Part shown: positions 9,905 through 42,674 of the stretch, piece by piece
Numbering within the stretch: the stretch's first letter is position 1
How the letters are laid out: each line of letters starts with the position of its first letter
Notes under the pieces: model-generated
Told to the model about the DNA's origin: nothing
Seen by the model: only the letters and a program-made list of their open reading frames with translations
The model's database searches: none
Origin: an uncultured Muribaculaceae bacterium
GTDB lineage: Bacteria; Bacteroidota; Bacteroidia; Bacteroidales; Muribaculaceae
Direction of reading: 5' to 3'
Length of the DNA stretch: 64,000 nucleotides
NCBI GenBank assembly: GCA_947632485.1
Contig: CANRPJ010000006.1
Coordinates: 1 to 64,000, forward strand
Made by a program: the position numbers and the translations under genes

Positions 9905-12280
9905 TCATTTAAGAGGAAAATCTACCTCCATCAGCCTCACAGCCAGCAGCTCTCCGAAGCTTCCTTCTACCCTGACTCTCAGCCGCGGCCTGATACCGCG
10001 CTCCGAAGGGAGCATCAGCGCCCGCCGGGCGGCCACCTCTCCCTCGCCGCTCACGCTGAAGCGCAGCGCGCCGGCGGCTCCGGAAGGGGTCTCCATCTCC
10101 ACGGTCACCATAGCCGCCACCGGGTCGCGAAGCCTCACCTCGCATACGGCCGCACCACGCATATCCGACTCCTCCCAACCCGACTGCCATCGGGCCGGAA
10201 GGCGCTCTTCGGAGGCAGCCGACGCGAGATAGAGGGTGCGCCGCAGAGCGTCGGTGCGCATCGGCACCGGCCCCTGTAGCAACCACTGCTCACCCACTTC
10301 CGTGCGCTCGGAAAGCTCCTCGCCGCCAAGGCCGCGCAGGGAATAACTCCCGCCTTCGAGACCTATCAGCAGCTCATCGCCGCTCTCGCGCCAGGCCAGA
10401 CTCCGCGCGCCCGGAAGGCCGCGCAGGCGCCGGCTCACGCGCGCATCGGATATAACCAGAAGAGCTCCCGAATCGGAGAGCGCGGCTACACCGCCGTCGA
10501 AGCCCACCACGCGGCTGCGCTCGCCCACACAGGCCTCCGAGATGCGGCGGCAGTTGGTGTGCCGGCCGGCTACATCGTGGGTCAGCGCCATCACTCCTTC
10601 AGGCGTGAAGGCATAGATGAACTGGCGCGTATAGGCACCGCCGCCCGTGCGCTGCGCCTCGATCAGAAGCACCTCGCCGCCCACATCGCCCGTTTCCGCG
10701 TAGGCCGTCAGGGGGTTGCCGCGTGCCGAAGTGATCAGCGAGCGGGGCCGGGAGGCGGTGACGCTCCCTCCCGCTTCCGGCGCCACCATCGAAGCGGGTC
10801 CCTCCTGAAGCCCTACCGGCTCAAGGCCGGGCGCGAGCCAGAAAGCGGCATTCTCGCCGCGGGGAGCCGCCGAAAGAGGAAACCGATAGCTGAAGGTGCC
10901 TTTGGAGCTGCTCAGGTTCACTGTAAGGGCAGAAGCCCTCCTGTCGGGATACCATTGCAGGGGTGCCAGCTCATCGGCAGCTCCCGTAAAGCTCCCTGAC
11001 GCAGTAATATAGGTATCGCCTCCGGGACCGGAGAGAGTGGCCATAGCCTGCCACTGCACCGGCTCATCGCCCGGAGCCGGAAGCGGAGAGGGCAGAGGAG
11101 CGGGCACCGAGAGATTTCCCAGATGCAGGAAACCGGCATAGCCGAGCAGTGCCTCGGCCCTCATTCCGGCCATCGCCACGCCGGGGGCGGTCAACACCTC
11201 CGGCGTAGCCGCCGGCGGACGCTTCACCCTGGCCTGAGCCTCGCCCACCGTAGCCGCGGGCACCATCGGCGCCTCCAGCAGCGCGGAAGCGAGCTCGCCG
11301 CGGTCGCGCAGCCTGGAGATCACTCCAAGCCTGTAAGGGTCTGAATGATAGCTCACCGAGGCATCGGCTGAAGAGCTGAAAGGCTCTGCGGCATCGGCTG
11401 TCCAGATCTCGAAAGCGGAAATCACCCCTCTCCATTGAGGGGAAATTCCGGAATCTACCTTCACGCGCAGGCTGAATGCCTGAGCCGATACGGTGCCTCC
11501 GGAGATGCCCATAAACGCTCCTGACGCATTCCTCTCAAGCGGAAGCTCCACCCGCTCAGCGCCTTGCCAGCCGCGCGGCGACACTATGCGAGGAGCACTC
11601 ACGCCGAGAAGCGAGCCGTCCCAAAGCCTTACGGCAAGCCTCACCTTCACCGGCTGGATCCATCGGCCCGACACGCGCGCCTGGTCAGCGAGGTCGAGGC
11701 GCGCCGAAGCTACCGCCGAAGCCGCCTTTGCCGACACATCGGCAGGCACTCCGGCCCGCATATCGGCCACGGGGCTGCGGAAAGCCACCGCCTCCACGGG
11801 GGCCGAGAGGGTAACCTCGTCGGCCACCTCTACGCTCAGTCCGGGCATAGCCGGAAGGGCGCCGAGCCAACTATAGCCGCTCCCGGAGAAGTGCAGGAAG
11901 ACCATCGGCCCCTGCTGCGGAGTGATCACGAAGAAATCGCCAGCACCGGCCCAGGCCTTGGGAAGACCCTGAAGCTCACCGAGCGTCGAGGCGTGCACCT
12001 CAAGCGAGCCGTCGGGCGCTACGCGTCCTTCGCATCTGAGCACACCCTCCTCTACCGAGAAGAGCCAGAGCGAGCCTTCGCGCCAGTCGGTCATCGCCAC
12101 GGGTCGCGGCAGGGTGCCCAGCTCCTCAGCCTTCTCTACAGCCACAAGGCGCCCCGGCCAGTGCTCACGCAGGTTGCGGGCCTCCACACCGTCGGCGCTC
12201 ATCAGAGGCAACCTGCCGCCCGCACGCTCCGGACTGCGCATGGCCCGGAGGGGAAATTCCAGAGAGTCACGCCGCTTCAT
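9905..12280 (-). CDS. Large beta-rich protein translated with the portal; putative virion-associated protein
   Basis: About 791 residues, rich in Ala, Gly, Ser and beta-type sequence, no signal peptide, no transmembrane segment and no recognisable catalytic motif. I place the start at the ATG at 12280 (MKRRDSLEF), which sits after a GGAAAGGAGGG run and overlaps the portal stop by 14 nt; an upstream in-frame ATG at 12310 is possible. Repeated short beta segments (residues about 60-160 and 480-700) suggest a propeller-like or multi-domain beta structure. Tight coupling to a portal gene suggests a head-completion, stabilisation or tail-hub role. That is inference from position only; I do not recognise the family. 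Confidence 0.6.
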   Translation of the reverse strand: MKRRDSLEFPLRAMRSPERAGGRLPLMSADGVEARNLREHWPGRLVAVEKAEELGTLPRPVAMTDWREGSLWLFSVEEGVLRCEGRVAPDGSLEVHASTLGELQGLPKAWAGAGDFFVITPQQGPMVFLHFSGSGYSWLGALPAMPGLSVEVADEVTLSAPVEAVAFRSPVADMRAGVPADVSAKAASAVASARLDLADQARVSGRWIQPVKVRLAVRLWDGSLLGVSAPRIVSPRGWQGAERVELPLERNASGAFMGISGGTVSAQAFSLRVKVDSGISPQWRGVISAFEIWTADAAEPFSSSADASVSYHSDPYRLGVISRLRDRGELASALLEAPMVPAATVGEAQARVKRPPAATPEVLTAPGVAMAGMRAEALLGYAGFLHLGNLSVPAPLPSPLPAPGDEPVQWQAMATLSGPGGDTYITASGSFTGAADELAPLQWYPDRRASALTVNLSSSKGTFSYRFPLSAAPRGENAAFWLAPGLEPVGLQEGPASMVAPEAGGSVTASRPRSLITSARGNPLTAYAETGDVGGEVLLIEAQRTGGGAYTRQFIYAFTPEGVMALTHDVAGRHTNCRRISEACVGERSRVVGFDGGVAALSDSGALLVISDARVSRRLRGLPGARSLAWRESGDELLIGLEGGSYSLRGLGGEELSERTEVGEQWLLQGPVPMRTDALRRTLYLASAASEERLPARWQSGWEESDMRGAAVCEVRLRDPVAAMVTVEMETPSGAAGALRFSVSGEGEVAARRALMLPSERGIRPRLRVRVEGSFGELLAVRLMEVDFPLK

Positions 12281-13628
12281 GGCTACCCTCCTTTCCTCTT
12301 TCGGCCGCACGACGGCAACCGGTTATGAAATCTTCGAAAGCGCTCAGCAGATCGAGCATGGCGAGCGAGGCGCGCTGGCTGTCGGCTTCGAGAGCCTCGG
12401 CGCTCACGCTTCTGCCGCCCGAACGGAGGGGAGCCGGCATGCCCGACACCTCCTGAAAGAGACTCAGCTGAGTATCAAGCAGCTGAGTGGCTCCGGCAGC
12501 TGCCGGAGCTCCCTGCACCTCGCGCGGCATCACCGATTTAGACGTGCGCTTGAAGGGGAGAATGCTGCCCGGGGTGCTCCACATGCGGCGCAGATCGCTC
12601 CAGGTCATGCCTTCGGGAATCTGGTCGGTAGGATAGAGCACCACACCCTTAGCGGAAGCGGCGAGCATCTCGTCGAGCATGGTCACGAGGCGGTTCACGA
12701 GCTTCTGCTGCGAAATCACATCTTCCACGAGGCTATGCACCTCGCCGTCGATCATCGGATAGAACCGTAGCCTCAGCGCTGGCGAATCGCTTTCCGCGAG
12801 GCGCTCGCGGAGCAGCACTTCTCCTCCGGGTCCGAGCCAGGTATGCTCCCAGCCATCGTCGACCCGGATATGATATTTCAGAGGCTGCCTACCCTCCGCC
12901 ACACGGCGTCGGCACAGCTCTTCGAGGCGCCCTCGCGCTCCGCGGGTGCACTCTCCTTCCACCAATGATCCGGAATCGGGGTCAAATACCTTGAGCAGCG
13001 TGACCGGATTGCGGCGCCACACCTCAGCCACCCGGAAAAGTCCATCGGGAGCCTCCTCACCGTATTCCCAGCGCGGAGGAGGAGTAAAGGCGTATGGCTC
13101 AACCGGCTCGCGGAGGGCAAAGACGTCCCAAACCGCTTCCGGATCGCGCCCTTTGGCGAAGCGCCGCAGCAGCTCGGCGGGGCTGAAATCATGGAGCATG
13201 CCCAAGAGGCGGCAGTCGGACGCGTCGGATTCGAGAAACGGGGAATAGAAGATGCGCTCAGGCGAGATATTGGCCATAGCGGGCCCCTGCGGATCGCCCG
13301 CGGCGCGCACCCTCACCGCAGCCATGCCGCTGATGAGGAACTCCTCGAGCGCCCGCGCCTCACACTCAGCCGTATCAGGTCTCAGCGACCGAAACCGCCC
13401 TACCACGGTCTTCACCATCTGGCGGATCAGATTGTTGGTGACAGGTGAGCGTCCCTGCTGCCACATCGCCTCTCCTTCGGATAGCCGCCTGGAGGCGGAA
13501 AAGCTCACGGGATCGTCCCACTGGCGCCCGTAGGTGAATTTTTTCAGCCTGGCACGGCTGAGCCGCATCTTGTAGAGATCCATATAGAGCCTCTGACAGC
13601 GGTTGTTGAGTTTTTCGTCGATAGTCAT
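12267..13628 (-). CDS. Phage portal protein, P22-like architecture
   Basis: 453 residues in the order expected of a portal: N-terminal helix with FTYGRQWDDP, SPVTNNLIRQMVKTVVGRFR (about 60-80), FLISGMAAVRVRAAGDP, NISPERIFYSPF...SDASDCR, VAEVWRR, then DGEVHSLVEDVISQQKLVNRLVTMLDEML (stem/crown helices, about 285-315) and a C-terminal helical part. Portals form the dodecameric DNA channel at one capsid vertex. At 453 residues it is compact compared with many P22-type portals. Preceded after 34 nt by the 170-residue gene, it overlaps the downstream gene. No tail, integrase or replication genes are nearby. Confidence 0.75.
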   Translation of the reverse strand: MTIDEKLNNRCQRLYMDLYKMRLSRARLKKFTYGRQWDDPVSFSASRRLSEGEAMWQQGRSPVTNNLIRQMVKTVVGRFRSLRPDTAECEARALEEFLISGMAAVRVRAAGDPQGPAMANISPERIFYSPFLESDASDCRLLGMLHDFSPAELLRRFAKGRDPEAVWDVFALREPVEPYAFTPPPRWEYGEEAPDGLFRVAEVWRRNPVTLLKVFDPDSGSLVEGECTRGARGRLEELCRRRVAEGRQPLKYHIRVDDGWEHTWLGPGGEVLLRERLAESDSPALRLRFYPMIDGEVHSLVEDVISQQKLVNRLVTMLDEMLAASAKGVVLYPTDQIPEGMTWSDLRRMWSTPGSILPFKRTSKSVMPREVQGAPAAAGATQLLDTQLSLFQEVSGMPAPLRSGGRSVSAEALEADSQRASLAMLDLLSAFEDFITGCRRAAERGKEGSHEAA

Positions 13629-13662
13629 GATGATTGGTAATTAAAATGGTTAAACTTCTTTT

Positions 13663-14175
13663 TCAGAGCTTTAGCAGCGACTGATCGAGTGAGTAAGAGC
13701 CATCGTCCGGGCGGGCTACCATCAGCAGCTCCTCAATCTGAGCTCCGGCGGGGAGGGCTCCGTAGACCCGCACCCGTCCCGGCAGGGCTATAGCCACCGG
13801 CATCTCCGCTCCGGCTCTGGTGAGAGGATAGCGCTGGAGACGCGCAATGTCGGACTCCGGGCTATGGAAAGTTTCAATCGGCTCCTGCGAGGTGGTGAAG
13901 AGAAGGCTCACGGGCCTTACTCCTCTTTCGGGCCACCGGATTTCGGTAATGTCGGGGGCCAGCCGCTTGAGCGTGGATCCGATCGTAAGGTTTTCTACCG
14001 GCAGCAGCTCTACGGGAGCCGACTGCATCAATTCGCAGTACCACGCTTCAATCTCAGCTTCCATGCTGAGGCGCAGCCCGGTAGCATCTTCGGCATCTGC
14101 CGAAAAGAGGGGGAGGATGCCCCGGCGGGCGCACCAGAGCTGAAGCATTTCTTCATTGTTGAAATTCTTAATCAT
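13663..14175 (-). CDS. First gene of the portal operon, unknown function
   Basis: 170 residues from the ATG at 14175 (MIKNFNNEEMLQL). The frame is open further upstream, but the promoter -7 box lies at 14223-14230, so only the 14175 start can be on the transcript. The sequence has an N-terminal helical part (LQLWCARRGILPLFSADAED), an acidic middle (MEAEIEAWYCELMQ) and a beta-rich C-terminal half (VRVYGALPAGAQIEELLMVA). No known domain recognised. As leader gene of a portal operon it could be a head-tail adaptor or small-terminase-like factor; this is inference. Confidence 0.65.
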   Translation of the reverse strand: MIKNFNNEEMLQLWCARRGILPLFSADAEDATGLRLSMEAEIEAWYCELMQSAPVELLPVENLTIGSTLKRLAPDITEIRWPERGVRPVSLLFTTSQEPIETFHSPESDIARLQRYPLTRAGAEMPVAIALPGRVRVYGALPAGAQIEELLMVARPDDGSYSLDQSLLKL

Positions 14176-14222
14176 AATTCCTAGTTCTTTAATGGTGAAA
14201 CATTGTGTCTTGAAAGACGATG

Positions 14223-14254
14223 CAAAGTTATATAGAATTTTCTTAGCTTCCAAA
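14223..14254 (-). promoter_or_regulatory. Phage-set promoter A (portal operon)
   Basis: Minus strand: ATTTGG with TTTG at 14251-14254, 20-nt spacer containing AAGAAAATTCTAT, TAACTTTG at 14223-14230, followed by CATCGTC. About 36 of 40 bases match promoter B at 18287-18318. Confidence 0.85.
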
Positions 14255-14255
14255 T

Positions 14256-14535
14256 TATTTTGAAAGAAATTTTCAAAAGAGCCACAACCATTTTATATAA
14301 GTCTTATTATTAGATATTTATCATAGTAAAATTTTATGTTTAAGTAGATTATATATGATAGATAAAGATTATTTAACAAAACAAAGATAGAATATAACAG
14401 GCAAACAATAAGTTATATTCTTAATAATTCAATTAACATTAAAGAGTTAAAGTTGTTAAAGCACAAACAAAAAGCATACGGAATATTTGGAAATTGCAAC
14501 TAATTATCTTAAATTTCGCCTCTCAATAACCTAAC
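14256..14535 (+). other. AT-rich divergent intergenic region
   Basis: 280 bp of very AT-rich DNA between the portal operon promoter and the protease gene. It holds the likely protease promoter (TTTG at 14486-14489, 20-nt spacer, TAAATTTC at 14510-14517). No ORF or stable RNA structure was seen. Confidence 0.6.
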
Positions 14536-15795
14536 ATGAAAACCATGAAGAAAAAGTTCCTGTATTCGCTTTGTCTTCTATTAGCAAGCTGCGCAGCTAA
14601 CGATTTGCCTGAACTAAAGGAAGAGAAGTTGCCTCAAGGAGCGATAGCTCAATTTAGGAACCCGCAGGAGGTACTCGAGCTTGCTATGGAGGCTCTTCAG
14701 GAATATTATCCTACCACCAGGACTTCAAGAGAGGTGACGCAGAAAGACGTCAGCTTTCTGACTTACTCAAAAACACGTGGATCCGCTTCAGACAGCCTAT
14801 TATATGTGGTGAATCTGCCAGATGACGGAGGATTCATACTGGTGCTGGGAAACCGTAATTTCACGACTCCGGTTTTAGCAGTCACAGAAAAAGGGAATCT
14901 GACGGATATTGAATCTATCGAGATTCCTGGGTTGAAGATGTATGTGGAAGACGCTTTAGTCTATGCCTCGACTCCTGCTACACCTCCAACTCCTCCTACA
15001 CCAAACCCGCCCCAACCGCCAACGTCTGAACTAAGAAAATATATCACTTACCAGAAAGAAGAAAAAGTTGATCCGAGAGTTAAGGTAAAATGGTCACAAA
15101 GATATCACGCAGGCATGTATTGCCCTAACCAAATTGCAGGGTGCGTTATGATTGCAGGAGCGCAAGCTTTAAGCTATTTCAAACAACCAACATATGTTGA
15201 TTTAACTTATCCTGGGAAAGATAAAGAACGGGTTTTATTTGATTGGAACGAGATGCTGAAAATTGTACCAAGTACAAATATCTCTGATCCAACCACTCTT
15301 GAAGCTGCTAAAGATTTAGGAAGACTATGCCGAGAAATAGGTTATTCAATTCAAGCCTCATACAATCCTACATCAACTGGAGCATCAACTTCTAAACTCA
15401 GGACCTGGATCATTAATCATGCTACTCAATTATCTATTTCAGAATATAAATATGGTTTTCCTGACGCTATGAAAGAGTTAGGAGAAGGTATAATTGTAAT
15501 GAGAGCTGAAGATATATATTCTGGTGATGGTCATGCATTTGTGGTAGATGGGTATAGCTACATATATTCAGAATATAAAGAACAAATTAGAGCCGCAGGA
15601 AGTACGGTTTGGGAAGATACAGGAGTTACAGGTAGCACCATAGACTATAAACATTACATCAACTGGGGTTGGGGCGGAACCGGTGATGGGCCATTTTCAA
15701 TGGAGTGGCTGAATCCCTCTGTTCCAAGCTCTACAGGATATAAGTATTACCACTTTAGAAACGATCCAGCATATTTTATAATCAAAAAGAAATAA
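14536..15795 (+). CDS. C10 family (streptopain-like) cysteine protease lipoprotein
   Basis: 419 residues. Lipobox LLASC (Cys 19) after a basic N-terminus, so probably lipid-anchored. A Spi-type propeptide (about 25-145) precedes a proline-rich linker (TPATPPTPPTPNPPQPP) and the peptidase domain. The nucleophile is Cys 203 in NQIAGC, the catalytic His is 333 in GDGHAFVVDGY, and INWGWGG lies near the C-terminus, all as in C10 peptidases such as SpeB. Related Bacteroides proteases (Bfp, Btp) are secreted and often paired with a small inhibitor; the next gene could be one. Codon use is much more AT-rich than its neighbours, a sign of recent transfer. Confidence 0.88.
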   Translation: MKTMKKKFLYSLCLLLASCAANDLPELKEEKLPQGAIAQFRNPQEVLELAMEALQEYYPTTRTSREVTQKDVSFLTYSKTRGSASDSLLYVVNLPDDGGFILVLGNRNFTTPVLAVTEKGNLTDIESIEIPGLKMYVEDALVYASTPATPPTPPTPNPPQPPTSELRKYITYQKEEKVDPRVKVKWSQRYHAGMYCPNQIAGCVMIAGAQALSYFKQPTYVDLTYPGKDKERVLFDWNEMLKIVPSTNISDPTTLEAAKDLGRLCREIGYSIQASYNPTSTGASTSKLRTWIINHATQLSISEYKYGFPDAMKELGEGIIVMRAEDIYSGDGHAFVVDGYSYIYSEYKEQIRAAGSTVWEDTGVTGSTIDYKHYINWGWGGTGDGPFSMEWLNPSVPSSTGYKYYHFRNDPAYFIIKKK

Positions 15796-15803
15796 ATAAG
15801 AAC

Positions 15804-16370
15804 ATGAGTTCAATTATTAAATATATTTCAGTAGTATGCTTGCTTATGAGCATAGGAGTGGCAGGGTGCACTAAAGATGAAGTACCTGAGTGGAATATTA
15901 ATATCGATGAAGATGACGACAAAATAGAAAATAACGACAATTCGGAACCAATTGATATTGCCAAAATACTTTTTCGGCTAAGCGGCGATTACGCACAATA
16001 TGTGCCAGTTCGATATTATCCTGGTGGCTACAATAGTCCAGGTCCGAATAATCCGGATCCATGGGTTCTTGATGAAGGCTACTATTACTCACCATGGGGT
16101 TGGGTGTCAACAGATCTTGATATTTATATAAATCTCACATGGGAGGAGTATAGAAATAACGAATTTTTGATTTCATCTCGTTATAAAGACATAATACCTG
16201 AAGCGAAAGTGATTCGAACAGTTATTTTGCCTGAAAACATCGAAGAAATAGCGCTAGAGCGGCATCCGGAGTTTTTTGAAAATAAAATAAGCTATGATGA
16301 TGCCCTTAAAGAGACCATGAACTGGCTGATATCCGAAGGACTTCCGGATTGCATAGTCAAAGACTTATAA
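15804..16370 (+). CDS. Acidic lipoprotein paired with the C10 protease; possible inhibitor
   Basis: 188 residues, signal peptide with lipobox (VAGC, about Cys 22), then an acidic, Asn-rich linker (DEDDDKIENNDN) and a C-terminal domain with aromatic-rich (YYSPWGWVSTDLDIYINL) and helical parts. It starts 8 nt after the protease stop and shares its low GC content, so the two were probably acquired and are expressed together. In Bacteroides, C10 proteases are co-transcribed with staphostatin-like or propeptide-like inhibitors, and position suggests such a role. I see no sequence similarity that proves it. Confidence 0.7.
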   Translation: MSSIIKYISVVCLLMSIGVAGCTKDEVPEWNINIDEDDDKIENNDNSEPIDIAKILFRLSGDYAQYVPVRYYPGGYNSPGPNNPDPWVLDEGYYYSPWGWVSTDLDIYINLTWEEYRNNEFLISSRYKDIIPEAKVIRTVILPENIEEIALERHPEFFENKISYDDALKETMNWLISEGLPDCIVKDL

Positions 16371-16393
16371 TCATAAGAATATTAGATTAGTAG

Positions 16394-16434: not shown

Positions 16435-16452
16435 AATGGGCGAACCTCGTGG

Positions 16453-17676
16453 TTACATTCCGATTACGCGTGCGTGGGCTCCGGGGTAGCGGAGGGTGAG
16501 GCAGCTTGCCTCGGTGAGCACGACGGCCTCGGTGTTGCGCTGGCCGGAGCCGCGCAGGTCGAGGGTTTCGGCGGAAAGGGGAATGAAGACGTGCTTCTGA
16601 AGATAATCGGGGTCGATGATGAGACCGGAAGAGGCCATGCCCATAGTATCGAACACCTCGTCGAAGACCACGAAGAGCCTTCCGAACTTGGAGCAGATCT
16701 CCGAGAAGTCGATGCCCCAAGCGGTCATCTTATCGGCCGGAGTGGCTACTCTCTGCACGTCGAGCTTATTGAGGGCGGCGATGAGCTCGCTTCCGGCCAC
16801 GAGCACCTTTCGGCGCGATCCGCTGTTTTCGGTGAAGGCCTGTCGCATCATGTCGACGAGCTGCGTGCCGTCGAGCGTGCTCAGGTCGAGAGCAATCTCC
16901 TTGGCGGCCTGGCTCCAGATGCCTTGCGTGAGGGTGACGTTCTCGCCCTTCAGATGATCATAGACCTTCATCTTCTTTCCGAAGAGAAACTGCTTCTCCA
17001 TTCCGAGGCGCATATCATAGAGGGCGGCCTCCTGCTGGTCGGTGAAATCCCAGCCTATCTCCTTGTGAGACAGGCGCATCACGGCACTCTGCTCCACCTG
17101 CATCTTGAAGATCTGGCAATAGTTGGTCATCTTCTGAGGCAGGGCGTTGAACTGGGGCGACTGCACATCGAGCTGAGTGGCTGCACGCCCCATGCGCACT
17201 ACCGATAGCGAGCTGCGCGAGGAGAGGGACTCGTCGGGGCAGAGAAACTGCACCGTCTTATCCTGCACGGCCACCACGTAGGCTGTCATCATGCCCAGTG
17301 CGCCAGCGGAATAGCAGAATGACTCCGAAACTTCGAGCCTCGGCGACGACTCGCCTTTCAATTCGGCTGAATAGAGGCGGTTGCCGAAACCGTCGCCTCC
17401 GTCGGGAATCTCCTGGAGCGCCGTGAGGCTGATGCGCTCGCCGCGGGTATCGACGCTGTAGTAATCTACATTTAGACTATCGACGCGGCGCACATGGCCG
17501 AGGCGCGAAATCTGGTCGACGGGGGTAGACATCGGCCGGATCTTGGTGATAGCCTGATCAACGGCATTGGTGAGCAGACCCGGGGAAGCGGCTTCCGCCA
17601 CATCGGTGGTGAGGGGCTGGGCGGAGGAATGAAGACCTCCGGCTACTCCAGCAGCAAGTTTAATTTCCTGATTCAT
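16453..17676 (-). CDS. HK97-fold major capsid protein (SU10/DUF5309-like)
   Basis: 407 residues, no signal peptide. Early TPVDQISRLGHVRRVDSL and VDYYSVDTRGE, then KMTNYCQIFKMQVEQSAVMR, HKEIGWDFTDQQEAALYDMRLGMEKQFLFGKK (the long spine-like helix), and a C-terminal beta-rich part with LVAGSELIAALNKL, RLFVVFDEVFDTMGM and FIPLSAETLDLRGSGQRNT. This order matches SU10-type capsid proteins. It follows the Pro/Glu-rich gene after 63 nt of leader containing three AACCATTA-type repeats and has no separate promoter. No protease, decoration or tail gene is adjacent. Confidence 0.75.
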   Translation of the reverse strand: MNQEIKLAAGVAGGLHSSAQPLTTDVAEAASPGLLTNAVDQAITKIRPMSTPVDQISRLGHVRRVDSLNVDYYSVDTRGERISLTALQEIPDGGDGFGNRLYSAELKGESSPRLEVSESFCYSAGALGMMTAYVVAVQDKTVQFLCPDESLSSRSSLSVVRMGRAATQLDVQSPQFNALPQKMTNYCQIFKMQVEQSAVMRLSHKEIGWDFTDQQEAALYDMRLGMEKQFLFGKKMKVYDHLKGENVTLTQGIWSQAAKEIALDLSTLDGTQLVDMMRQAFTENSGSRRKVLVAGSELIAALNKLDVQRVATPADKMTAWGIDFSEICSKFGRLFVVFDEVFDTMGMASSGLIIDPDYLQKHVFIPLSAETLDLRGSGQRNTEAVVLTEASCLTLRYPGAHARVIGM

Positions 17677-17739: not shown

Positions 17740-18228
17740 CTAAAAGTCAGAGTCCCAGACGCTTTTTCTTCCTACAAAGGGGGAGGTAGCGGGATCGTCG
17801 AGGCCCATTCTGGCGAGGGCTTCGAGCGATGCGGGACTGGGATCGGTCCTGTCAATCCAACAGGCCTCAACAGCTTCTGCCCTGCCTCTGAGATAGCCGA
17901 TTCTTTCCCTCTCTTCGAGGAGGGCCTCGATATTATCAGAGGTATCAGGTGGTTCCGGCTCCGGCTGCACTTCGGGTTCAGGCTCCGGTAGCGGTTCCTC
18001 TTCGGGAAACTCCGGTTCCGGCTCCGGCTGCACTTCGGGTTCAGGCTCCGGTAGCGGTTCCTCTTCTGGAAGCTCCGGTTCCTCTTCTGGGAGCTCCGGT
18101 TCCGGTTGCTCCAGTAGTTCTTCAGGGAAGCCGGCTGCTACTTGAAGTTCGCCCGTGGGAACGGCACTCACAATGGGACTGGTTGACGCCTGATTGCGCC
18201 GGCGTCTGGCGCGTCTTGATTTGCTCAT
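17740..18228 (-). CDS. Pro/Glu-rich protein preceding the capsid gene; putative scaffold or assembly factor
   Basis: 162 residues. A basic start (MSKSRRARRRRNQ) is followed by a Pro/Glu repeat region (about 40-95) and a C-terminal helical domain (NIEALLEERERIGYLRGRAEAVEACW, about 98-125). The repeat is encoded by two 63-bp units (17951-18013 and 18014-18076) that differ at two positions, plus a partial third. Position immediately ahead of the capsid gene in the same transcript suggests a scaffold or internal protein, a role that tolerates low complexity. No family recognised. Confidence 0.65.
   Translation of the reverse strand: MSKSRRARRRRNQASTSPIVSAVPTGELQVAAGFPEELLEQPEPELPEEEPELPEEEPLPEPEPEVQPEPEPEFPEEEPLPEPEPEVQPEPEPPDTSDNIEALLEERERIGYLRGRAEAVEACWIDRTDPSPASLEALARMGLDDPATSPFVGRKSVWDSDF
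17951..18110 (-). repeat. 63-bp tandem repeat, 2.5 copies, within the Pro/Glu-rich gene
   Basis: Units 17951-18013 and 18014-18076 match at 61 of 63 bases; a shorter related copy follows to about 18110. The unit length keeps the reading frame and adds 21 residues per copy. Confidence 0.9.
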
Positions 18229-18286
18229 CTTGAGTAAAAATTAATGATTAAACACTCTGTCTTCTTCTTTTCTTTTGAAGACGATG

Positions 18287-18318
18287 CAAAGTTAGATAGA
18301 ATTTTCTTACCCACCAAA
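18287..18318 (-). promoter_or_regulatory. Phage-set promoter B (capsid operon)
   Basis: Minus strand: ATTTGG with TTTG at 18315-18318, 20-nt spacer containing AAGAAAATTCTAT, TAACTTTG at 18287-18294, then CATCGTC. Similarity to promoter A extends well beyond the two boxes. Confidence 0.85.
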
Positions 18319-18381
18319 TATTTCAAGAAGAAATTTCAAATTATTTTTGCCATCTATTCTAACTAAGGACTGATTTTTATA

Positions 18382-20147: not shown

Positions 20148-20424
20148 ATGAAAGAGACGGCTTTTAGGCCTTTTGGGAGGCGGAGTGCTGGTGCAGGCGC
20201 TCAATGTAGTGGCCACGATGAGGCCGACGCGCAGAAAAGTAGACGCCGATGCTCTCGGCGCCGAAGTGACGGCCCTGGAAAGGACCATAAACCTTATTTA
20301 CAGTAAATTCGAGGAATCGGAGCGGCGTGCGGCGGAGCGGGAGCAGCGGCTGCAGGCGGAGATAGAGCGGCTGCGCGCCCGCGTGCGCGAGCTCGAAGAC
20401 CTCATCGCTGCAACGCGGCGGTGA
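20148..20424 (+). pseudogene. Small membrane-anchored coiled-coil protein with a +1 frameshift at its start
   Basis: The ATG at 20148 has a good promoter and leader, but its frame gives a low-quality basic peptide. Removing one A from ATGAAAG gives MKRRLLGLLGGGVLVQALNVV, a clear basic-plus-hydrophobic membrane anchor, followed by a convincing coiled coil (TALERTINLIY..., RAAEREQRLQAEIERLRARV) to the stop at 20424. In that frame the only downstream start is a TTG at 20173, which cuts into the hydrophobic segment. I read this as a one-base insertion, a sequencing error or slippage. The 3' end overlaps rsmA by 23 nt. Spanin-, holin- or anchor-like roles are possible, none proven. Confidence 0.6.
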
Positions 20425-31449: not shown

Positions 31450-32313
31450 TTAATCATCTTTTTCATTCATATCCAAATTCTTTGATTTCAACAGCTTTTG
31501 CTCTTTTCTTTCCAGTTTCTTTATGCTTTCTACCGATGGAAGATCCTCTGGCATGGTTCCACCTATGCTCTTAATAGCTCTACGAACCTTAGTTCCTACC
31601 TCTTTATGCACTTTATTAGCATTTTCTTTACCTACTATATTTTCTTTTCTCAACACCTCTTCGGTTTGAGTAGCCCGGAAAAGATTTGCTGCAAGCTCAG
31701 TACTTCCCATGTGATCAAGGATATTTTGAGATTTACCAAGTCCTTTTCTTTCATGGATATCCGCACTTGTAAGGCCTCCATATAATCCCTTATACCCTTC
31801 ATTCTGGAAAATTGCGTAGTCCCTATTGCTTACCACACCAGCTTTCTGTGCTGCTCCTGCAAGCTGAGAATTATGCTTTTTCATTTCTCCTCGCAGTAGA
31901 AGCCTGCGCCTTTCTTCTTCTGAAAGATGTATATTATCAAGTAATATTTCAGATCTTCTTGTTTGGATTGCAAAATAGGTTTTAGCCTGAGCTACAATAG
32001 TTTTAGTAGGATCGGCATTGAGTACAATTAAGTAACACGCATAGCGCGATAACTTAATATTATCTACCTTTCTCTCAGCGCCTTTACCTAAGGTTATCAT
32101 ATCGCTAAACGGAGCGAAATGATCATTGGGATTTATTCCACTATTTTTACAATTATACCAAGCTTTACGTGCCACTGGCAGAAACTTACCATACTCTACA
32201 TATCCGAGTACTCTATAAAGATCTCGAGCTGTCCAGTATTCTTGTCCTTCCTCATCTCTCTTTTTTATATTCTCGAAAATTTCTATCGCTTTTTTCGTAA
32301 GTCTGGCACTCAT
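31450..32313 (-). CDS. dinD: DinD-like DNA damage-inducible protein D
   Basis: 287 residues from the ATG at 32313 (MSARLTKKAIEIFENIK). The N-terminal half is a Bro-N-like/DinD domain (YWTARDLYRVLGYVEYGKFLPVARKAW...NHF), the centre has KLSRYACYLIVLNADPTK and YFAIQTRR, and the C-terminal half has GLTSADIHERKGL and MGSTELAANLFRATQTEE. E. coli DinD binds RecA filaments and inhibits strand exchange. Upstream lies a consensus promoter, so the longer frame to 32460 is not transcribed. GC content is much lower than neighbouring genes, a sign of transfer. No clear LexA-type operator was recognised. Confidence 0.85.
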   Translation of the reverse strand: MSARLTKKAIEIFENIKKRDEEGQEYWTARDLYRVLGYVEYGKFLPVARKAWYNCKNSGINPNDHFAPFSDMITLGKGAERKVDNIKLSRYACYLIVLNADPTKTIVAQAKTYFAIQTRRSEILLDNIHLSEEERRRLLLRGEMKKHNSQLAGAAQKAGVVSNRDYAIFQNEGYKGLYGGLTSADIHERKGLGKSQNILDHMGSTELAANLFRATQTEEVLRKENIVGKENANKVHKEVGTKVRRAIKSIGGTMPEDLPSVESIKKLERKEQKLLKSKNLDMNEKDD

Positions 32314-32339
32314 AGTAGCATCTTTAGGTTTTATTTCTA

Positions 32340-32370
32340 CAAAAGTAATAAAAGTTATAATAGAAACAAA
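32340..32370 (-). promoter_or_regulatory. Promoter of dinD
   Basis: Minus strand: TTTG (32367-32370), 19-nt spacer, TACTTTTG (32340-32347). Puts the transcript start near 32333. Confidence 0.75.
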
Positions 32371-32460
32371 TATTTTCAAAAACTTCAGATGAGTATGGAA
32401 CCTTTTTATTTTATTTAGAATAAATTTAAGATTATATAAATTTATAATGATCATCAACAA

Positions 32461-35944: not shown

Positions 35945-35965
35945 GGCTATATCCTTTTATTATTG

Positions 35966-35997: not shown

Positions 35998-36059
35998 AGA
36001 TTATCGCGATGCGAGGGAAGCGCACCGGGATATCACATGATTGATCAGCTGTCTCAGCC

Positions 36060-37808
36060 TTACTTCTTCCCCTTTTTATCAGCTTTTTGCGTAGGGAATT
36101 TCACATTGTCGGAGTCCGTAGCTACAAAATTGCGGGTCTCCTCGCGGCCATACACATAGGCATCGGTCATCTCGATCTTATTGTCAGGGGTAAATTCAAA
36201 CCCATCTACACAATATATGTTGATGATTCTCGGATCAAACACGCGGAAAGTGTTGCCGTTCACCTTGATATTCTTGTGGTAGCGGCAGTTTTCGCGCTGA
36301 GGGATTCCGCTGCCTACAGAGATGCAGGCGCTGCCCCATGTAGGAGAGCCGTAGTTGCCGTTCTCAAACACGTTGTTGCGGATCGTCACATCGCGCACTC
36401 CCGACTGCTCCCACCAATAGTTGCCGTCGCCTTCGAAAAGAATCGCGGAGCCCGGAATGTGGAAATAGCAATCTTCAATCACCGTCTTGCCTCTCGAGCC
36501 CAGGAGCAGGCCACGGGCGCGGTTACCGCTGAAATGGCAGCCTTTTATGAGCACTTCGGGATAGTCGTCGTCAGCCGCTACTACGTGGCGCTTCTTCACT
36601 CCCTCCGGAAGAGGCTCCGTAAGAGTCACTTCAGTGAAGATCTTGTTAAGACGCTTCACATCTTTCACCTCCCTGCGGGCATACGTGTTAAGATTCTCAT
36701 TGTCAACAAGCTCAAGCGTCATGCCGGGACGTATGAAATCTACTCCGTACTGCCCCGAGTTGTGCCAGCGCACCATCATCTTGTCGGGAGCCATCACGGA
36801 ATCTACTGCCATATAGAGGCCGTGGATATTGGTAGCGTCATCTTTCTGATTCTTAAACGTGCAGTCGATCATGCGCAGATAGCCGCCGCAGTTCACGAAG
36901 TGGGTGGCGTCAGCCGTAGCCGATACCATTCTGCCCGCCGGGGGCACCACATCTACCTTATTGAGCTCGATATCGCGGCTTCTCTGGGCTATCACTCCCA
37001 TGCCCCCGCAGTGGTAGATATTGATGTTTTTGAGAGTCACGCCGTTGCAGTCGGCCAGAGTGAAAGCGGGATTATAGCGGGCCAGAGCGCCGAAAATCAT
37101 GATATTGCCGGGAGTGCCCACCTTGTCCTTGCCCGTGAAGCGGAAGCTGCCGTCTTCATTCTTGGTTACAGGCATTCCGCCCCAGATCCATATATCCTGA
37201 GCATAATAGGCTGGTTCGCGTTTATTTACGTCAAACTCCAGCATGCTGCCGTAAGGATAGGTCGTGCCTTCTTTATCGCGGAAGCGGAGAAGACCGTTGT
37301 TTACCTCGGCGCCATATTCAGGAGCGAAGGAAATGTCGAAGCCGCCGTCGAACACATTGGTGATCGTACCCTCCGAATGAAACGTGCGTGTGAAATCGAT
37401 GCTCAGGTTCTCGATGGTAATGTTAGTGCAGTCCTCAAGATTGAAGGGAGAGATGAATCCGGTGAAGATTAGCTCCGTGCCATTGCCCTCGATAGTAAGG
37501 TTATCGAAGCCGTCGAGCTGGAAAGCTATCCGCTTAAGGCTTTCGTCGTTGTTGGATATAAACTGATACTTCTCGAAGGCCTTGTCGGGGCGCACGCGCA
37601 GCTTTCCTCCGGGGAGCACGAGCTTGGAAGCCTTCGACTCTTTCGCTGCCTCCAAGGCTGCCCGGATAGCCGGCTGGGCATCAGTCTGAGCCTCACCGGG
37701 AGATAGAAAATCACTGATATATACGGTTTTGCCATCATTTGCACCGAAGGCGGAGCAATAAGAAAGAAGGCACAGTCCGAATACCTTTAAAAATCTGTTT
37801 GGTTTCAT
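36060..37808 (-). CDS. Alpha-1,3-galactosidase (GH110)
   Basis: 582 residues with a signal peptide (to about AFGAN), then a right-handed parallel beta-helix seen as repeated short strands (NLTIEGNG, NITIENLSIDF, GVTLKNINIYHCGGMGVIAQ, VRDVTIRNNVFENG). DATNIHGLY and RGLLLGSRGKTVIEDCYF are typical of GH110 enzymes. Family members remove terminal alpha-1,3-linked galactose from blood-group B or linear B glycans, fitting host mucin foraging in the gut. Single gene with its own promoter (TAACTTTG at 37846-37853). Confidence 0.9.
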   Translation of the reverse strand: MKPNRFLKVFGLCLLSYCSAFGANDGKTVYISDFLSPGEAQTDAQPAIRAALEAAKESKASKLVLPGGKLRVRPDKAFEKYQFISNNDESLKRIAFQLDGFDNLTIEGNGTELIFTGFISPFNLEDCTNITIENLSIDFTRTFHSEGTITNVFDGGFDISFAPEYGAEVNNGLLRFRDKEGTTYPYGSMLEFDVNKREPAYYAQDIWIWGGMPVTKNEDGSFRFTGKDKVGTPGNIMIFGALARYNPAFTLADCNGVTLKNINIYHCGGMGVIAQRSRDIELNKVDVVPPAGRMVSATADATHFVNCGGYLRMIDCTFKNQKDDATNIHGLYMAVDSVMAPDKMMVRWHNSGQYGVDFIRPGMTLELVDNENLNTYARREVKDVKRLNKIFTEVTLTEPLPEGVKKRHVVAADDDYPEVLIKGCHFSGNRARGLLLGSRGKTVIEDCYFHIPGSAILFEGDGNYWWEQSGVRDVTIRNNVFENGNYGSPTWGSACISVGSGIPQRENCRYHKNIKVNGNTFRVFDPRIINIYCVDGFEFTPDNKIEMTDAYVYGREETRNFVATDSDNVKFPTQKADKKGKK

Positions 37809-38022
37809 AAATCGTTACATTGGTTTAGAAAAGAAAACTTGCTTACAAAGTTAATACAACCCCGACAATTTCAAAACCACTTAAGAAAAATCCCCTCATA
37901 CCTTCCACCGATTAAAGGGCTATCAGCTTTTTTGTCCAGGCCTTTGAGCTTCAGCTCAAAGCCTTGATCTCCTTGAAAGCTCTGTTCCCCACTCAGCCGC
38001 GCAGTGGCGATATTATTTTTAA

Positions 38023-38050
38023 CCCCAGGTCAGCGGAGCGCTACCTGGGG
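38023..38050 (-). terminator. Second hairpin downstream of gap
   Basis: CCCCAGGT (38023-38030) pairs with ACCTGGGG (38043-38050), with an inner AGCG/CGCT stem. On the minus strand TTAAAAAT follows, so it backs up the first terminator. Confidence 0.6.
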
Positions 38051-38082
38051 ATAAAAAACCTGCGAACTTCACAGCCCGCAGG
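38051..38082 (-). terminator. Terminator of gap
   Basis: Minus strand CCTGCG, 12-nt loop, CGCAGG, then TTTTTTAT. Confidence 0.8.
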
Positions 38083-38119
38083 AAAACAAAGTATGAAAAC
38101 AATTATTAAACGTCCTTTT

Positions 38120-39181
<1,062 letters not shown>

Positions 39182-39187
39182 TTACCG

Positions 39188-39219
39188 TTTGTATAACACA
39201 CAGATTGTGCGTATTTTTG
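39188..39219 (+). promoter_or_regulatory. Promoter of mscL
   Basis: TTTG (39188-39191), 20-nt spacer, TATTTTTG (39212-39219). Confidence 0.8.
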
Positions 39220-39283
39220 CATCGGCTTTGGAGTTTTAACTCTCCGGAGTGCAAATTTAAGAATTTTTTCGCAATTAATCACT

Positions 39284-39733
39284 ATGGGAAAATTTCTCGC
39301 AGACTTTAAAGAATTTGCCCTTAAGGGTAATGTGATCGACATGGCAGTGGGTGTTATCGTCGGCGGAGCGTTTGGAAAAATCGTTTCTTCGCTCGTCAAC
39401 GATATTCTCATGCCCGTTATCTCAATCGTGACAGGAGGTGACGGCTACAAGAACCTGAAATATGTGATCACACCCGGACATGAGGCTACCGCCGACGGGG
39501 TGGCTGCGGTTGAGGAAGTGGCTATCAACTATGGTCTCTTCATTCAGAATATCGTAGACTTCGTCATCATCGCGCTCAGCATTTTCGTGGCTCTCCGCTT
39601 CGCTGTAAAGCTCAAGAAGAAAGAGGCTGAGCCCGATCCCGCGCCTGCGCCCGATCCGGAGCCTACCAAAGAAGAAGTTCTTCTGACAGAGATCCGCGAC
39701 CTTCTGAAATCCGAGGCCGAGGCGCGCAAGTAA
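39284..39733 (+). CDS. mscL: Large-conductance mechanosensitive channel
   Basis: 149 residues. N-terminal amphipathic helix, TM1 with [29 protein letters not shown], periplasmic loop, TM2 ([21 protein letters not shown]) and a C-terminal helix after a Pro/Asp/Glu linker ([13 protein letters not shown]). Opens under membrane tension in hypo-osmotic shock. The last 71 nt overlap the 3' end of the convergent terminase gene. Confidence 0.95.
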
Positions 39734-40772
39734 GCCCCGCAGAGGTGCCTATGGCTTCTATGCTCCGGAGGCGATGGCTGTCGGCTATCGCTTCTGAGGG
39801 GTTGAAATCGGGTGCCGTGCATGAGGCCTCACCGTTGAGAAACGCCTCTTCGGGAGTTGATGGAAATTCCGCCATCATCGCCTCGTGTGTGGGATATTCC
39901 CGGCGCTTCCGGTGATACCAGGCTATCCGCTCCGCCTCGATGCCGGTGCGGTCCATCAGCTGGAGCTCATAGCCGTCAAGATCTTTTCTGAGCTTCTCCA
40001 CCTCCGAAGGTGAGAGAGGCTCAGTTTTATATATGTCGATCTCATACCAGGGCACGAACACCGCCCTCTTGTCGCTCTTTTCCGCGTGCGCGCGTTTCCA
40101 TTCCTTGTAGAAGTAATTGTCGCGGCCGTTGGCGGTCGATTCCATCACTATCAGCGAGTCGGCGCAGAGAGGCACCGTGCCGCTTACCGTGCGCACTATC
40201 TTCTCGGCGGCCTCGCTCTCACCCTCTCCCCAGAAGGCTACCTCCGAGAGGTGGGCCATGTGGAAATTGAATCCCCTCACCGAATCGGGCGCCTGTGCCG
40301 AAGCTATGCCCAAAAGGCTGCCCCGCGCGGCTATCCAGGCCATCGATCCGGTTTTCTCGTAGGGTTGAAGAGTCCAGGCTTTCGGGTCGGGACGGAGATT
40401 GCCCTCGGAATCGAAAGTGGTCTTGAGCCGGTCGGGATAGTTGCGCAGCAGCCGGCTGTAGGTGCCGCGGATTCCTGCCGACGCATCTTTTACGTGGGCG
40501 CATACGAGCGCGTTCCAGCCCTCGCGGCGCACGAGCTGCATCCATGCCATATAGGTCTCTATCAGCGTGCTTCCGCCCCATTGCCTCGCCTTCAGCATTA
40601 TCAGGCGGATCGGCCGCCCGGCCTGGCGCATGCTCTCGAGCTCCGCGAGCACCCGCTTCTGGGGCTTGTTGAGCCTGAAGGGCACCTGCATGCCGCTCAT
40701 CTTGTCGGTTATGGCTACGCATTCGCGTGCCCACAATTCGAAATCTTCGAAATAATCTTTGAAATTGCTCAT
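39663..40772 (-). CDS. Phage large terminase, ATPase domain only
   Basis: 369 residues. An N-terminal helical part ([15 protein letters not shown]) precedes the deviant Walker [12 protein letters not shown] (residues 60-70, lysine at the early position), Walker B-like [10 protein letters not shown] (172-181) and coupling motif [11 protein letters not shown] (211-221). ATPase sequence runs to [10 protein letters not shown] (about 320); the remaining 40 residues are unlike a nuclease, and the gene ends inside mscL antisense sequence. Typical large terminases are 450 residues or more and carry an RNase H-like nuclease. It stands alone between mscL and a peptidase, with a promoter like that of the capsid and portal operons. 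Confidence 0.82.
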
Positions 40773-40834
40773 AATCTTGGTTTTAATGGTTTCTGTTCCG
40801 ATTTAGTAGATTCCCTTAGCGCAGAAATCTGATG

Positions 40835-40866
40835 CAAAGTTAGCTTCTTTTATTGAAATATCCAAA
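40835..40866 (-). promoter_or_regulatory. Phage-set promoter C (terminase)
   Basis: Minus strand: ATTTGG with TTTG at 40863-40866, 20-nt spacer, TAACTTTG at 40835-40842, then CATC. Same boxes, spacing and flanks as promoters A and B, though the spacer differs. The leader ends GAAACCATTAAAACCAAG before ATTATG. Confidence 0.8.
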
Positions 40867-40872
40867 TTTAAT

Positions 40873-40954
40873 TTTGCGGTTTCAAAAATAATATCTAACT
40901 TTGCAGCGCAAACGAGAGAAATGAAAGAAGCGCCAACCTTTCGGTCAGCGCTTC
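40873..40954 (+). ncRNA. Divergent promoter with a short hairpin transcript; candidate small RNA
   Basis: A plus-strand consensus promoter (TTTG at 40873-40876, 19-nt spacer, TAACTTTG at 40896-40903) points into the gap between terminase and the peptidase. The only ORF is 15 codons (ATG 40921, stop 40966-40968). Its sequence is dominated by a 12-bp hairpin (40927-40954) that also serves as terminator for the peptidase on the other strand. A small RNA or a leader peptide is possible. Confidence 0.35.
40918..40954 (-). terminator. Terminator of the C1B peptidase gene
   Basis: Minus strand GAAGCGCTGACC, GAAA tetraloop, GGTTGGCGCTTC (12 bp with two G-U pairs), then TTTCATTTC. Confidence 0.75.
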
Positions 40955-41006
40955 GGCACGGAGCCTGAGGCTCCTCAATCAGTTTAGCCTTGAAATTTGA
41001 AATTTC

Positions 41007-42209
41007 TTATTTCAGCTTCTGGGCAAGATCAGCGGGAAGGGCGTTCTTGTTCACCATCATAGTGGTGGTCTTCTCCAGCATATAAGGAACGCTCATGTAG
41101 AAGAAACCTCCGTATACCTGGTTGGTATCCCAGGAGTTCTTCACCTTATAATATTTCTCGCCGTTCTGGTCCTGGGCGATACCTACGATCACCATGCCGT
41201 GGTCATCGGTCGTCTCCTTATTGTCGAAGGCTGCCTGACGGCTTTCCTGGGTCACTTTCTTACGCTTGTAGTTAGGACCGGTCACCTGGTTGCGTTTTGC
41301 TTTCTCCTGAGGAGTGAGCTTCACCCAGCGGGAGAGCTCGGTGCCCTCGAGGTCATTTTCGGTGATGGGCTCGTTGAGCACTGCGAAGCCCTTGTTGTAC
41401 TGGAAGCCAGGCTCACTCACGTCGGCACCCCATGCTACGGTGTAACCGTTTTCAATGGCGTTGTCTACGATGCGCTCCATATCTTCCATCTGCACGTTCC
41501 AGCTCGGAGCCCACAGCCAGTTGTCGGATACCTCCAGAGGGAACTGGGTGTAGAAGGGGTGGTGGGTAAAGCTCGTGATCGATACATAGTCATCGGGGTT
41601 GAGCTTCATCACCTCGTCGGCGAAGGTGCGCGGGGTGTAGGTTTTGCCTTCATATACGAAGGTTTCGGGCAGCTGGCCGAAATATGCGTCGAGAATGCCG
41701 CCAAGACCGTTCTTCCAGGCTGTGGTGCGCTTGCGGCCACCCTTGCGGACGCCGTCGATGTAGCCCTTCACGCCTGATTCGAGCTCACCGTGGTCGTGCT
41801 TCTTCTCGCCATAGTTCAGGCCCGGATAAGCCGATTCGGGCACGAAGCCGTAGGTGCGGAGCACATAGATCACGTCTTCAGCGGCACCGCCTTGGGAAAG
41901 GTTGCTGTTTACGCCGTCCGTGCGCACGTACTTGATCGACTTGTCGTTGTAGCAGTGACGTACGGGCCACATGTCGGCCAGGTCGAGTTCCGGACCGCCT
42001 TTGCGCATCACCTCATCTTCCAGGAAGGAGGTGGTGGAGAAGCTCCAGCACGTGCCGCTCTTGTTCTGGTTCTTCACGGGAGTGGTCTTGACTACCTTCA
42101 CGTCGGTGAACTTGAAGGTCGAGTCAGCCGCCTCTTTCTTCTGCTTGTTGGCAGCGCTTACCGAAAATACGGTGCCTGCTGCAAGCGCGAGGATAAATAT
42201 TTTCTTCAT
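41007..42209 (-). CDS. Secreted C1B-family aminopeptidase (bleomycin hydrolase/PepC-like)
   Basis: 400 residues with a signal peptide (to about VSAAN). Papain-fold residues: Cys in PVKNQNKSGTCWSF, His in DDHGMVIVG, Asn in VKNSWD. PepC/bleomycin hydrolase enzymes are normally cytosolic hexamers; the signal peptide indicates a periplasmic version, as is common in Bacteroidetes. A TAAATTTG -7 box lies at 42242-42249. Confidence 0.92.
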   Translation of the reverse strand: MKKIFILALAAGTVFSVSAANKQKKEAADSTFKFTDVKVVKTTPVKNQNKSGTCWSFSTTSFLEDEVMRKGGPELDLADMWPVRHCYNDKSIKYVRTDGVNSNLSQGGAAEDVIYVLRTYGFVPESAYPGLNYGEKKHDHGELESGVKGYIDGVRKGGRKRTTAWKNGLGGILDAYFGQLPETFVYEGKTYTPRTFADEVMKLNPDDYVSITSFTHHPFYTQFPLEVSDNWLWAPSWNVQMEDMERIVDNAIENGYTVAWGADVSEPGFQYNKGFAVLNEPITENDLEGTELSRWVKLTPQEKAKRNQVTGPNYKRKKVTQESRQAAFDNKETTDDHGMVIVGIAQDQNGEKYYKVKNSWDTNQVYGGFFYMSVPYMLEKTTTMMVNKNALPADLAQKLK

Positions 42210-42275
42210 GATGATGATAGGAAAAAAGTATTGTCTGAGTGCAAATTTACTAATTTTTTAACAAAAAAACCAATT

Positions 42276-42674
42276 ATGTTTGAGAAAGATTTTTTGAAAG
42301 TGAACGAAATGGCCTGCCAGATTATGGCTGCCGAGTATTTTTTCTGTGCTCCCGCCAGCGGCGAGAGGGCTCCGAAGGTGTGGCGCTCACCTGTGGTCAC
42401 TCCTTCGCAAACGGCTCTTACGGAGCCGTTTGTAAGGGTCGAGCTGGCTGCGGTGGAGGCTGAGTTTGCCGCCTGGAAGGACCAGGCTCCGGAATGGCTG
42501 CCGGAGATGGGCAGAATGCTGGCATCGGAGCGCGCCGTGGCCGCCATGCTACGCACATCCTCGCCTGAGGCCGCAGAAAAACATGCGGCGCAGGCCGATG
42601 ACCTGCGCCACACGATAATGTGTATGCTTCTCGATCAGGAGATTGAATCCGAAAGCGGCTTGCGCGCCCTGTAG
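42276..42674 (+). CDS. Small acidic protein of unknown function, possible member of the dispersed phage-like set
   Basis: 132 residues from the ATG at 42276, which follows a leader (AAAAAAACCAATTATG) like those of the capsid and terminase genes. The frame is open upstream into the antisense of the peptidase gene, which I discount. Content: helical throughout (MFEKDFLKVNEMACQIMAAEYF; VELAAVEAEFAAWKDQAP; AAEKHAAQADDLRHTIMCML). No domain recognised. The 3' end overlaps ubiE by 40 nt. I see no good promoter on this strand. Confidence 0.55.
   Translation: MFEKDFLKVNEMACQIMAAEYFFCAPASGERAPKVWRSPVVTPSQTALTEPFVRVELAAVEAEFAAWKDQAPEWLPEMGRMLASERAVAAMLRTSSPEAAEKHAAQADDLRHTIMCMLLDQEIESESGLRAL

Follow-up and report, generated by a model that had tools for sequence, protein, structure and literature searches.

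The 64,000-nt stretch of contig CANRPJ010000006.1 analyzed here (the window, always meaning the whole stretch) carries a six-part set of podovirus-type particle genes, encoding a scaffold, an SU10-type capsid, an adaptor, a portal, a nozzle, and a terminase, which lie on the minus strand as three units between housekeeping genes. These particle genes are very likely domesticated, and the best overall explanation, which we consider probable, is an ancient domesticated podovirus-type phage that most likely serves as a gene transfer agent (GTA). GTA activity is a likely general function for the clade, and a less likely one for the window's own lineage. The same genes co-occur in related genomes, are dispersed along their chromosomes, descend largely vertically, are under purifying selection, and share promoters. 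A domesticated capsid or GTA-like system had been proposed in the first-pass annotation of this DNA, and the comparisons support that proposal, with gene transfer itself as the predicted function.

The three phage hallmark genes named at first, portal, capsid, and terminase ATPase, are borne out by Pfam and PHROG matches (Table 1), the Terminase_6N match of the terminase reaching 28.7 bits at a cut-off of 22. Three proposed companions hold as well, as the nozzle, as what is most likely the adaptor, and as a gene occupying the position of the relatives' scaffold gene, upstream of the capsid. The last shows weak tblastn similarity (4.7e-6 to 3.5e-5) to the equivalently placed gene in four loci (L007, L009, L022, and L060; L-numbers denote the loci and G-numbers the genomes compared), scores that call for caution because the protein is repeat-rich, and its sequence cluster has six members, two of which are the window itself. 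The labels scaffold, ejection-like, and fibre-like are partly our own reading. Portal, adaptor (with a modest Z), and nozzle together correspond to a podovirus-type tail, and the phage-derived structural genes are kept as host chromosomal genes, as in a GTA. Their GC content, described earlier as host-like, is so only loosely (59–67% vs. 54% in the window). The calling of open reading frames (ORFs) was crude: it overlooked one portal (G064) as well as a C10 peptidase, and it called the terminase region of L277 incorrectly.

Table 1. Particle genes, promoter copies, and other frames of the window.
Feature	Position	Strand	Remarks
Scaffolding-type protein	17740..18228	-	162 aa, acidic, repeat-rich; opens the capsid operon
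Major capsid protein, SU10 type	16453..17676	-	407 aa; Pfam SU10_MCP 1.1e-46; phrog_26635 3.4e-69
Head-to-tail adaptor	13663..14175	-	170 aa; most likely a tail adaptor; Z modest
Portal protein	12267..13628	-	453 aa; Pfam P22_portal 3.5e-20; PHROG156 5.6e-33
Tail nozzle	9905..12280	-	791 aa
Large terminase, ATPase domain only	39663..40772	-	369 aa; Terminase_6N 1.3e-6; PHROG2 1.4e-17
Promoter/leader of the scaffold-capsid operon	18278..18320	-	
Second copy of the same promoter	14214..14256	-	before adaptor-portal-nozzle
Small frame	20152..20424	+	hydrophobic start, coiled-coil-like by eye; probable particle-associated gene
Low-GC insertion: C10 peptidase with inhibitor domain and 188-aa protein	14536..16370	+	not a particle part; Peptidase_C10 4.1e-21, Inhibitor_I69 3.1e-9; GC 0.41 and 0.38

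Integrase, replication, and phage-type lysis genes were absent from 54 of the 55 called window genes in a Pfam scan that excluded the frame at 20173–20424. The ten neighbor proteins flanking three close loci, among them fumC, an ABC-3 transporter, yceG, and a TRCF-domain gene, likewise include no phage genes, so that no integrase or replication module lies alongside the particle genes, as expected of a GTA, and the contiguous organization of a prophage, with integrase, regulation, replication, and lysis, is not seen. The earlier statement that phage modules are missing stands for these functions and needs amending for one gene, as a BRO-N (phage-antirepressor-type) gene, possibly a regulator, is found amid host genes at 31450–32460. 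The lack of replication genes alongside in the window would also suit a phage-satellite-type element that hijacks helper phages, but such an element is highly improbable for a set that has its own capsid, portal, and terminase, occupies scattered chromosomal sites, and shows no integrase in the scanned proteins.

The particle genes are widespread. In the window's family, inferred to be Muribaculaceae and surveyed in 397 genomes (222 of them good) of 30 genera, the capsid profile matched 349 genomes (208 good; 29 genera) and the terminase profile, which can also catch true prophages, 362 (210 good; 29 genera); a single-sequence search had found 4 of 41 genomes (one at E 9e-4), a misleadingly low figure beside the profiles. 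In a sample of the order, 33 of 393 genomes matched, 31 of them from seven families with three to six matches each, and the other two being lone weaker matches (E 2.5e-101 and 1.5e-63) in two more families. Of 50,697 phage records, 5 matched the capsid, and pattern scans of IMG/VR, which have low sensitivity, confirmed one and five loci. Co-occurrence was assessed in 53 genomes chosen by their capsid (from 50 of the 58 loci of a reference-genome scan, plus G000, G004, and G018), corresponding to 51 distinct genomes since G004 and G018 equal G046 and G050 by coordinates. Terminase and portal profiles were each matched in all 53, usually in single copy; more than one terminase is present in G049, G075, and G084, and a few such genomes may also carry a real prophage. 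The nozzle was found in 39 of 39 genomes, comprising a subset of the capsid-chosen genomes and four further ones.

The ten closest loci (L005–L014) and L058 hold capsid, adaptor, portal, and nozzle together within ~5–10 kb (the adaptor of L013 being assigned by clustering only), with the terminase also nearby in five of the eleven (L005, L009, L010, L011, and L012); therefore, local rearrangement accounts for part of the dispersal in the window. Host genes surround this close-clade stretch and also interrupt it in three loci: a peptidase U32 gene precedes the terminase within the L010 stretch, and the same gene family is found in L005 and L009. A contiguous prophage in relatives, which had been named as the decisive counter-case, is thus matched by the contiguity of the close clade and contradicted by its embedding among host genes and by the separation of the genes elsewhere. 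Outside the window's clade, terminase and portal are mostly on contigs other than that of the capsid, and most of the more distant loci have the capsid and a scaffold-type gene, sometimes with an adaptor or a small gp55-like gene, amid unrelated genes; capsid, adaptor, and portal are still together in the distant L037, L045, L052, L054, and L055. In G258, a single contig of 3.34 Mb, the nozzle is located at 925,684, the terminase at 936,896, the portal at 1,358,440, and the capsid at 1,893,621, with the last three 0.42–0.96 Mb apart. Most genomes are draft metagenome-assembled genomes, and the scattering could for that reason be suspected of being an assembly or binning artefact; this is already contradicted and scarcely credible because of the single-contig cases, namely the window itself, G258 with its units far apart, and G088 and G079, where capsid and terminase share a contig at distances of ~50 and ~65 kb, respectively. 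The isolate drafts of Barnesiella sp. An22 and An55 also have the genes on separate contigs.

Tree distances in 25 genomes correlate among capsid, terminase, and portal (Spearman 0.92–0.94) and with the host gene der (0.69–0.75), and none of 2000 permutations was as high for any gene pair; the set originally had 26 genomes, from which G064 was dropped as its portal had been missed by ORF calling. Correlations of this kind rule out frequent transfer but leave room for occasional events. Portal and der lie on the same contig, ~7–26 kb apart, in 5 of the 26 genomes (G000, G046, G052, G053, and G085), and the capsid genes adjoin the same 546-aa gene, read as class I fumarase, in eight Barnesiella-type loci (in L046 it is near) as well as in G739 and G706. 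The ratios of nonsynonymous to synonymous substitution (dN/dS) in eight pairs, some of which share a genome, were 0.035–0.155 for the capsid, 0.074–0.133 for the terminase, 0.074–0.157 for the portal, and 0.011–0.040 for der; many dS exceed 1 and are imprecise. Vertical inheritance and selective maintenance, as expected of a GTA, are therefore found, yet patchily in the window's own genus. The concern raised earlier, that the genes might be sporadic and under relaxed selection, is answered by their family-wide presence at dN/dS of 0.035–0.157, and retains some force in the patchy occurrence in the window's genus and the higher dN/dS in its clade. The same evidence bears on whether the genes are remnants of a defective or degrading prophage, fixed by chance and rearranged. 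The phage-like gene order still seen in the close clade, the BRO-N gene, the existence of related real phages, and one interrupted terminase (G044) would suit such remnants; debris would not be expected to show presence across the family, low dN/dS, gene trees that agree, and promoters that match at separated loci, so that this explanation is already contradicted and very unlikely. The set is not a broken prophage, as family-wide dispersal and selection reject a broken single prophage.

The shared promoter is 43 bp long in the window, where it has two sites against none in 100 shuffles, and its 24-base core (≤3 mismatches) has exactly two sites in the 2.6 Mb genome, both in the window and preceding the scaffold and adaptor operons, with none in the control. 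The claim of shared promoter sequence accordingly holds for these two operons and fails for the terminase, whose placement under the window promoter was considered and is not supported by the genome-wide core scan. The low-GC insertion between capsid and adaptor splits the particle operon, the capsid-adaptor gap being <200 bp in close relatives, and the half downstream of the insertion has its own promoter copy. In the Barnesiella-type genomes, a different motif, TGCCATAAA-N19-TNYTTTGC, is common to the upstream regions of the three units; allowing ≤1 mismatch, it has 20 sites in six genomes against one for the reversed control, and 17 of the 20 lie, by coordinates, immediately upstream of the capsid operon, the portal, or the terminase (3/3 sites in G073, G074, and G079, 2/2 in G078, 3/4 in G077, and 3/5 in G088). 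Some of these sites served to build the pattern, so what counts is that it is nearly absent from other places. A single promoter motif for all clades was also considered and rejected: the Barnesiella-type motif was not seen in the upstream regions inspected of three other-clade genomes (G052, G053, and G055), and the longest substrings common to the units of non-Barnesiella genomes are 7–13 bases. Separate loci are thus under coordinated regulation, as in a GTA, with the window terminase as the exception.

Under the favored explanation, an ancestor common to several Bacteroidales families would have domesticated a podovirus-type tailed phage, kin of the BF1-TP2-like Bacteroides phages. The phage genes for head, neck, and packaging would have stayed on as host genes, usually in single copy, while replication and integration genes were lost, and the kept genes would have drifted apart along the chromosome under shared promoters. 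Some cells are predicted to make small short-tailed particles, which the terminase-portal motor would fill with fragments of host DNA, and which would be released by lysis to deliver this DNA to kin. The retention of portal, packaging ATPase, and nozzle argues for this function, as do a holin and an endolysin adjoining the capsid genes of a relative from another family (G706).

Other observations weigh against a GTA. The reading is drawn from genes, and particles, packaged DNA, and transfer are its predictions. In the window's genus, 14 of the 65 capsid matches are strong (E <1e-180) and 51 are weak, representing a much more divergent form (E 4e-6 to 4e-18); a further 19 or more genomes lack a capsid match, and terminase matches are mostly strong. 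Three window-clade relatives show higher dN/dS (capsid 0.12–0.26, terminase 0.19–0.24, portal 0.23–0.25, and nozzle 0.40–0.44). No tail fibre, phage-type lysis, or ejection gene was recognized in the window, the search for the first two covering the window and not the rest of its genome, and the window promoter is absent before the window terminase. Of 39 genomes, 13 gave a match to the ejection-like protein: ten strong ones, all in genomes of Barnesiella-type or its sister clade, one weaker in G706, and weak ones in G048 and G043 of the window's clade; none was found by profile in the window genome, possibly owing to limited sensitivity. An unexpected point concerns the terminase. In alignment, the window terminase has no nuclease domain, and ten further close-clade sequences either lack it as well or retain a motif-less remnant, so that the working terminase (ATPase plus nuclease) expected of a GTA is not found there; the close-clade terminase of G044 is moreover interrupted by a stop, and its locus, L077, was excluded from the alignment.

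As read from the aligned terminases, the nuclease is lost or decayed in the window's lineage while the ATPase stays constrained. Six aligned close-clade terminases retain the Walker A region KARQWGGST, which, judged by invariant columns, is nearly unchanged in 18 diverse ones. VD.GG, ESNT, and HDD, which we take to be the catalytic nuclease motifs, are present in 16 other-clade terminases, with EANT in L086, and in phage BF1-TP2. The called lengths are 306 aa in L012 and 319 aa in L011, and 491–551 aa in three relatives with a remnant; in three relatives, dN/dS is 0.10–0.15 for the ATPase part vs. 0.25–0.40 for the C-terminal remnant. A nuclease remnant 3' of the window terminase was also sought, and a tblastn search with two C-terminal domains against 39000–40000 gave a best E of 1.3. 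The last 71 bp of the window terminase overlap the 3' end of the convergent mscL (39284–39733). TerL cuts DNA before and after translocation, according to the excerpted text of one report (PMC7947584), so the window's lineage would need another source of DNA ends or a changed function. The nuclease-free motor would pump DNA by its ATPase alone, and the ends would be made by another nuclease or come from broken chromosomes; alternatively, delivery would have been given up.

A domesticated particle with a non-transfer function, such as tailocin-like killing of kin, DNA sequestering, or aid to programmed lysis, draws on the same evidence. In the window's genus, a nuclease-free motor with a constrained ATPase would suit a particle that has ceased to cut and package chromosomal DNA, and the ejection-like gene was not found beyond the Barnesiella-type, its sister clade, and G706, bar weak matches. 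We think such a function unlikely, as it is hard to see what scaffold, portal, and packaging ATPase would do if heads were not filled with DNA, and the nuclease motifs are kept in the 16 aligned other-clade terminases. Returning to the GTA explanation, the related families suggest a stepwise reduction, from sets with ejection-like, fibre-like, and lysis genes to a reduced scattered set and then to a nuclease-less terminase, a direction that assumes a phage as the starting point. The fibre-like protein and gp55 are kept in relatives of other families, and G706, a single-contig genome of another family, has a holin (Pfam 9.8e-8) and an endolysin (PHROG 2.5e-23) near its capsid (L282, 13585–14566). 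The ejection-like protein was found in none of the other-genus family genomes searched. At E 0.01, the fibre-like and the larger ejection-like proteins have no PHROG or Pfam match, and the smaller ejection-like protein has a weak PHROG tape-measure match (E 0.0028).

RcGTA and other alphaproteobacterial GTAs are vertically inherited chromosomal phage structural genes, present at more than one locus and under purifying selection, and the Bacteroidales set resembles them in all three respects. It differs in its SU10-type capsid, short-tail set, and Bacteroidota host, a distinction made by description; the excerpts of its description trace RcGTA itself to a headful packager whose TerL cuts DNA (PMC7947584). 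The FpGTA of Faecalibacterium, in the available excerpts of its report, is GTA-like, encodes short-tailed phage proteins, has two operons ~125 kb apart in one strain with lysis genes in the second, and has been observed as particles with packaged DNA (PMC12946183). The same excerpts report lateral transduction in Bacteroides and, of 25 GTA events, place 23 in three Gram-positive families while giving no location for the other two (PMC12946183). As far as these excerpts go, the present set shares with FpGTA the short-tailed phage proteins, the gut bacterial host, and the separated operons. It differs in phylum (the two being compared by description, not by sequence homology), in having about three units up to ~1 Mb apart in many genera and several families, in the missing TerL nuclease of the window's lineage, and in being known here from genes alone. 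Among the matches listed in the open-licence literature, a scope outside which bioRxiv falls, there was no GTA of Bacteroidales or Bacteroidota.

The closest phage counterparts are Bacteroides phages BF1-TP2, BKO1-TP3, and BS-TP4, whose capsids are 34–36% identical and which differ in being phage records of 64–68 kb. In BF1-TP2, the one phage examined, homology extends to scaffold, gp55, adaptor, portal, and terminase; it differs in its annotated replication genes, its structural genes lying together, and its intact nuclease motifs. The same gene family occurs in contiguous form in IMG/VR 2681813420 (L063/L275), which differs in resembling, by eye, a prophage with an endolysin, and in the IMG/VR contigs L272–L274. 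These are 6–9 kb long, carry terminase, capsid, adaptor, and portal, with a nozzle in L272, and may be chromosomal clusters misfiled as viruses. Another IMG/VR contig, L271, carries an inverted duplicate of capsid-adaptor-portal, probably an assembly artefact.

The combination of a core inherited short-tailed particle in whole families of gut Bacteroidales with a nuclease-free motor or new role in the window's lineage is a tentative proposition. If GTA particles are made, they would constitute a built-in route of gene exchange in common animal gut lineages, and a Bacteroidota GTA would be new to the phylum, judged by the literature matches listed. The related families offer a series of domestication states and raise the question of whether a nuclease-less terminase can fill a head. 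The promoters provide a handle on regulation, and the isolates An22 and An55 make experiments possible.

Several neighboring features touch these subjects less directly. L276 (G016, of the window's genus), the one weak capsid case examined, holds an element that is related to the window's set yet separate from it, comprising a scaffold, a capsid (E 3.5e-26), an adaptor, and a full-length terminase of 677 aa, in which other genes separate portal from adaptor; this divergent second form is possibly what most species of the genus carry, and weak capsid matches also occur in G253, G261, G294, and G380 of another genus. The two remaining companions proposed at first fared differently. The frame at 20148–20424 has homologues directly 3' of the terminase in two relatives, G042 and G044 (E 1e-11 and 3e-9), and has no in-frame ATG at the relatives' start position. 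The ORF at 42276–42674 on the plus strand exists, but it is unsupported as a particle gene, matching none of the 282 compared loci and no Pfam family. Adjoining M23 peptidase and glucosaminidase genes at 51975–53812, before recA, resemble host cell-wall enzymes and could conceivably have a role in particle release. An AbiEii-type nucleotidyltransferase toxin gene lies at 57880–58887 with a possible partner ORF at 58880–59512, and a beta-helix protein with GLAA-B barrel domains is encoded at 36060–37808, adjoining gap.

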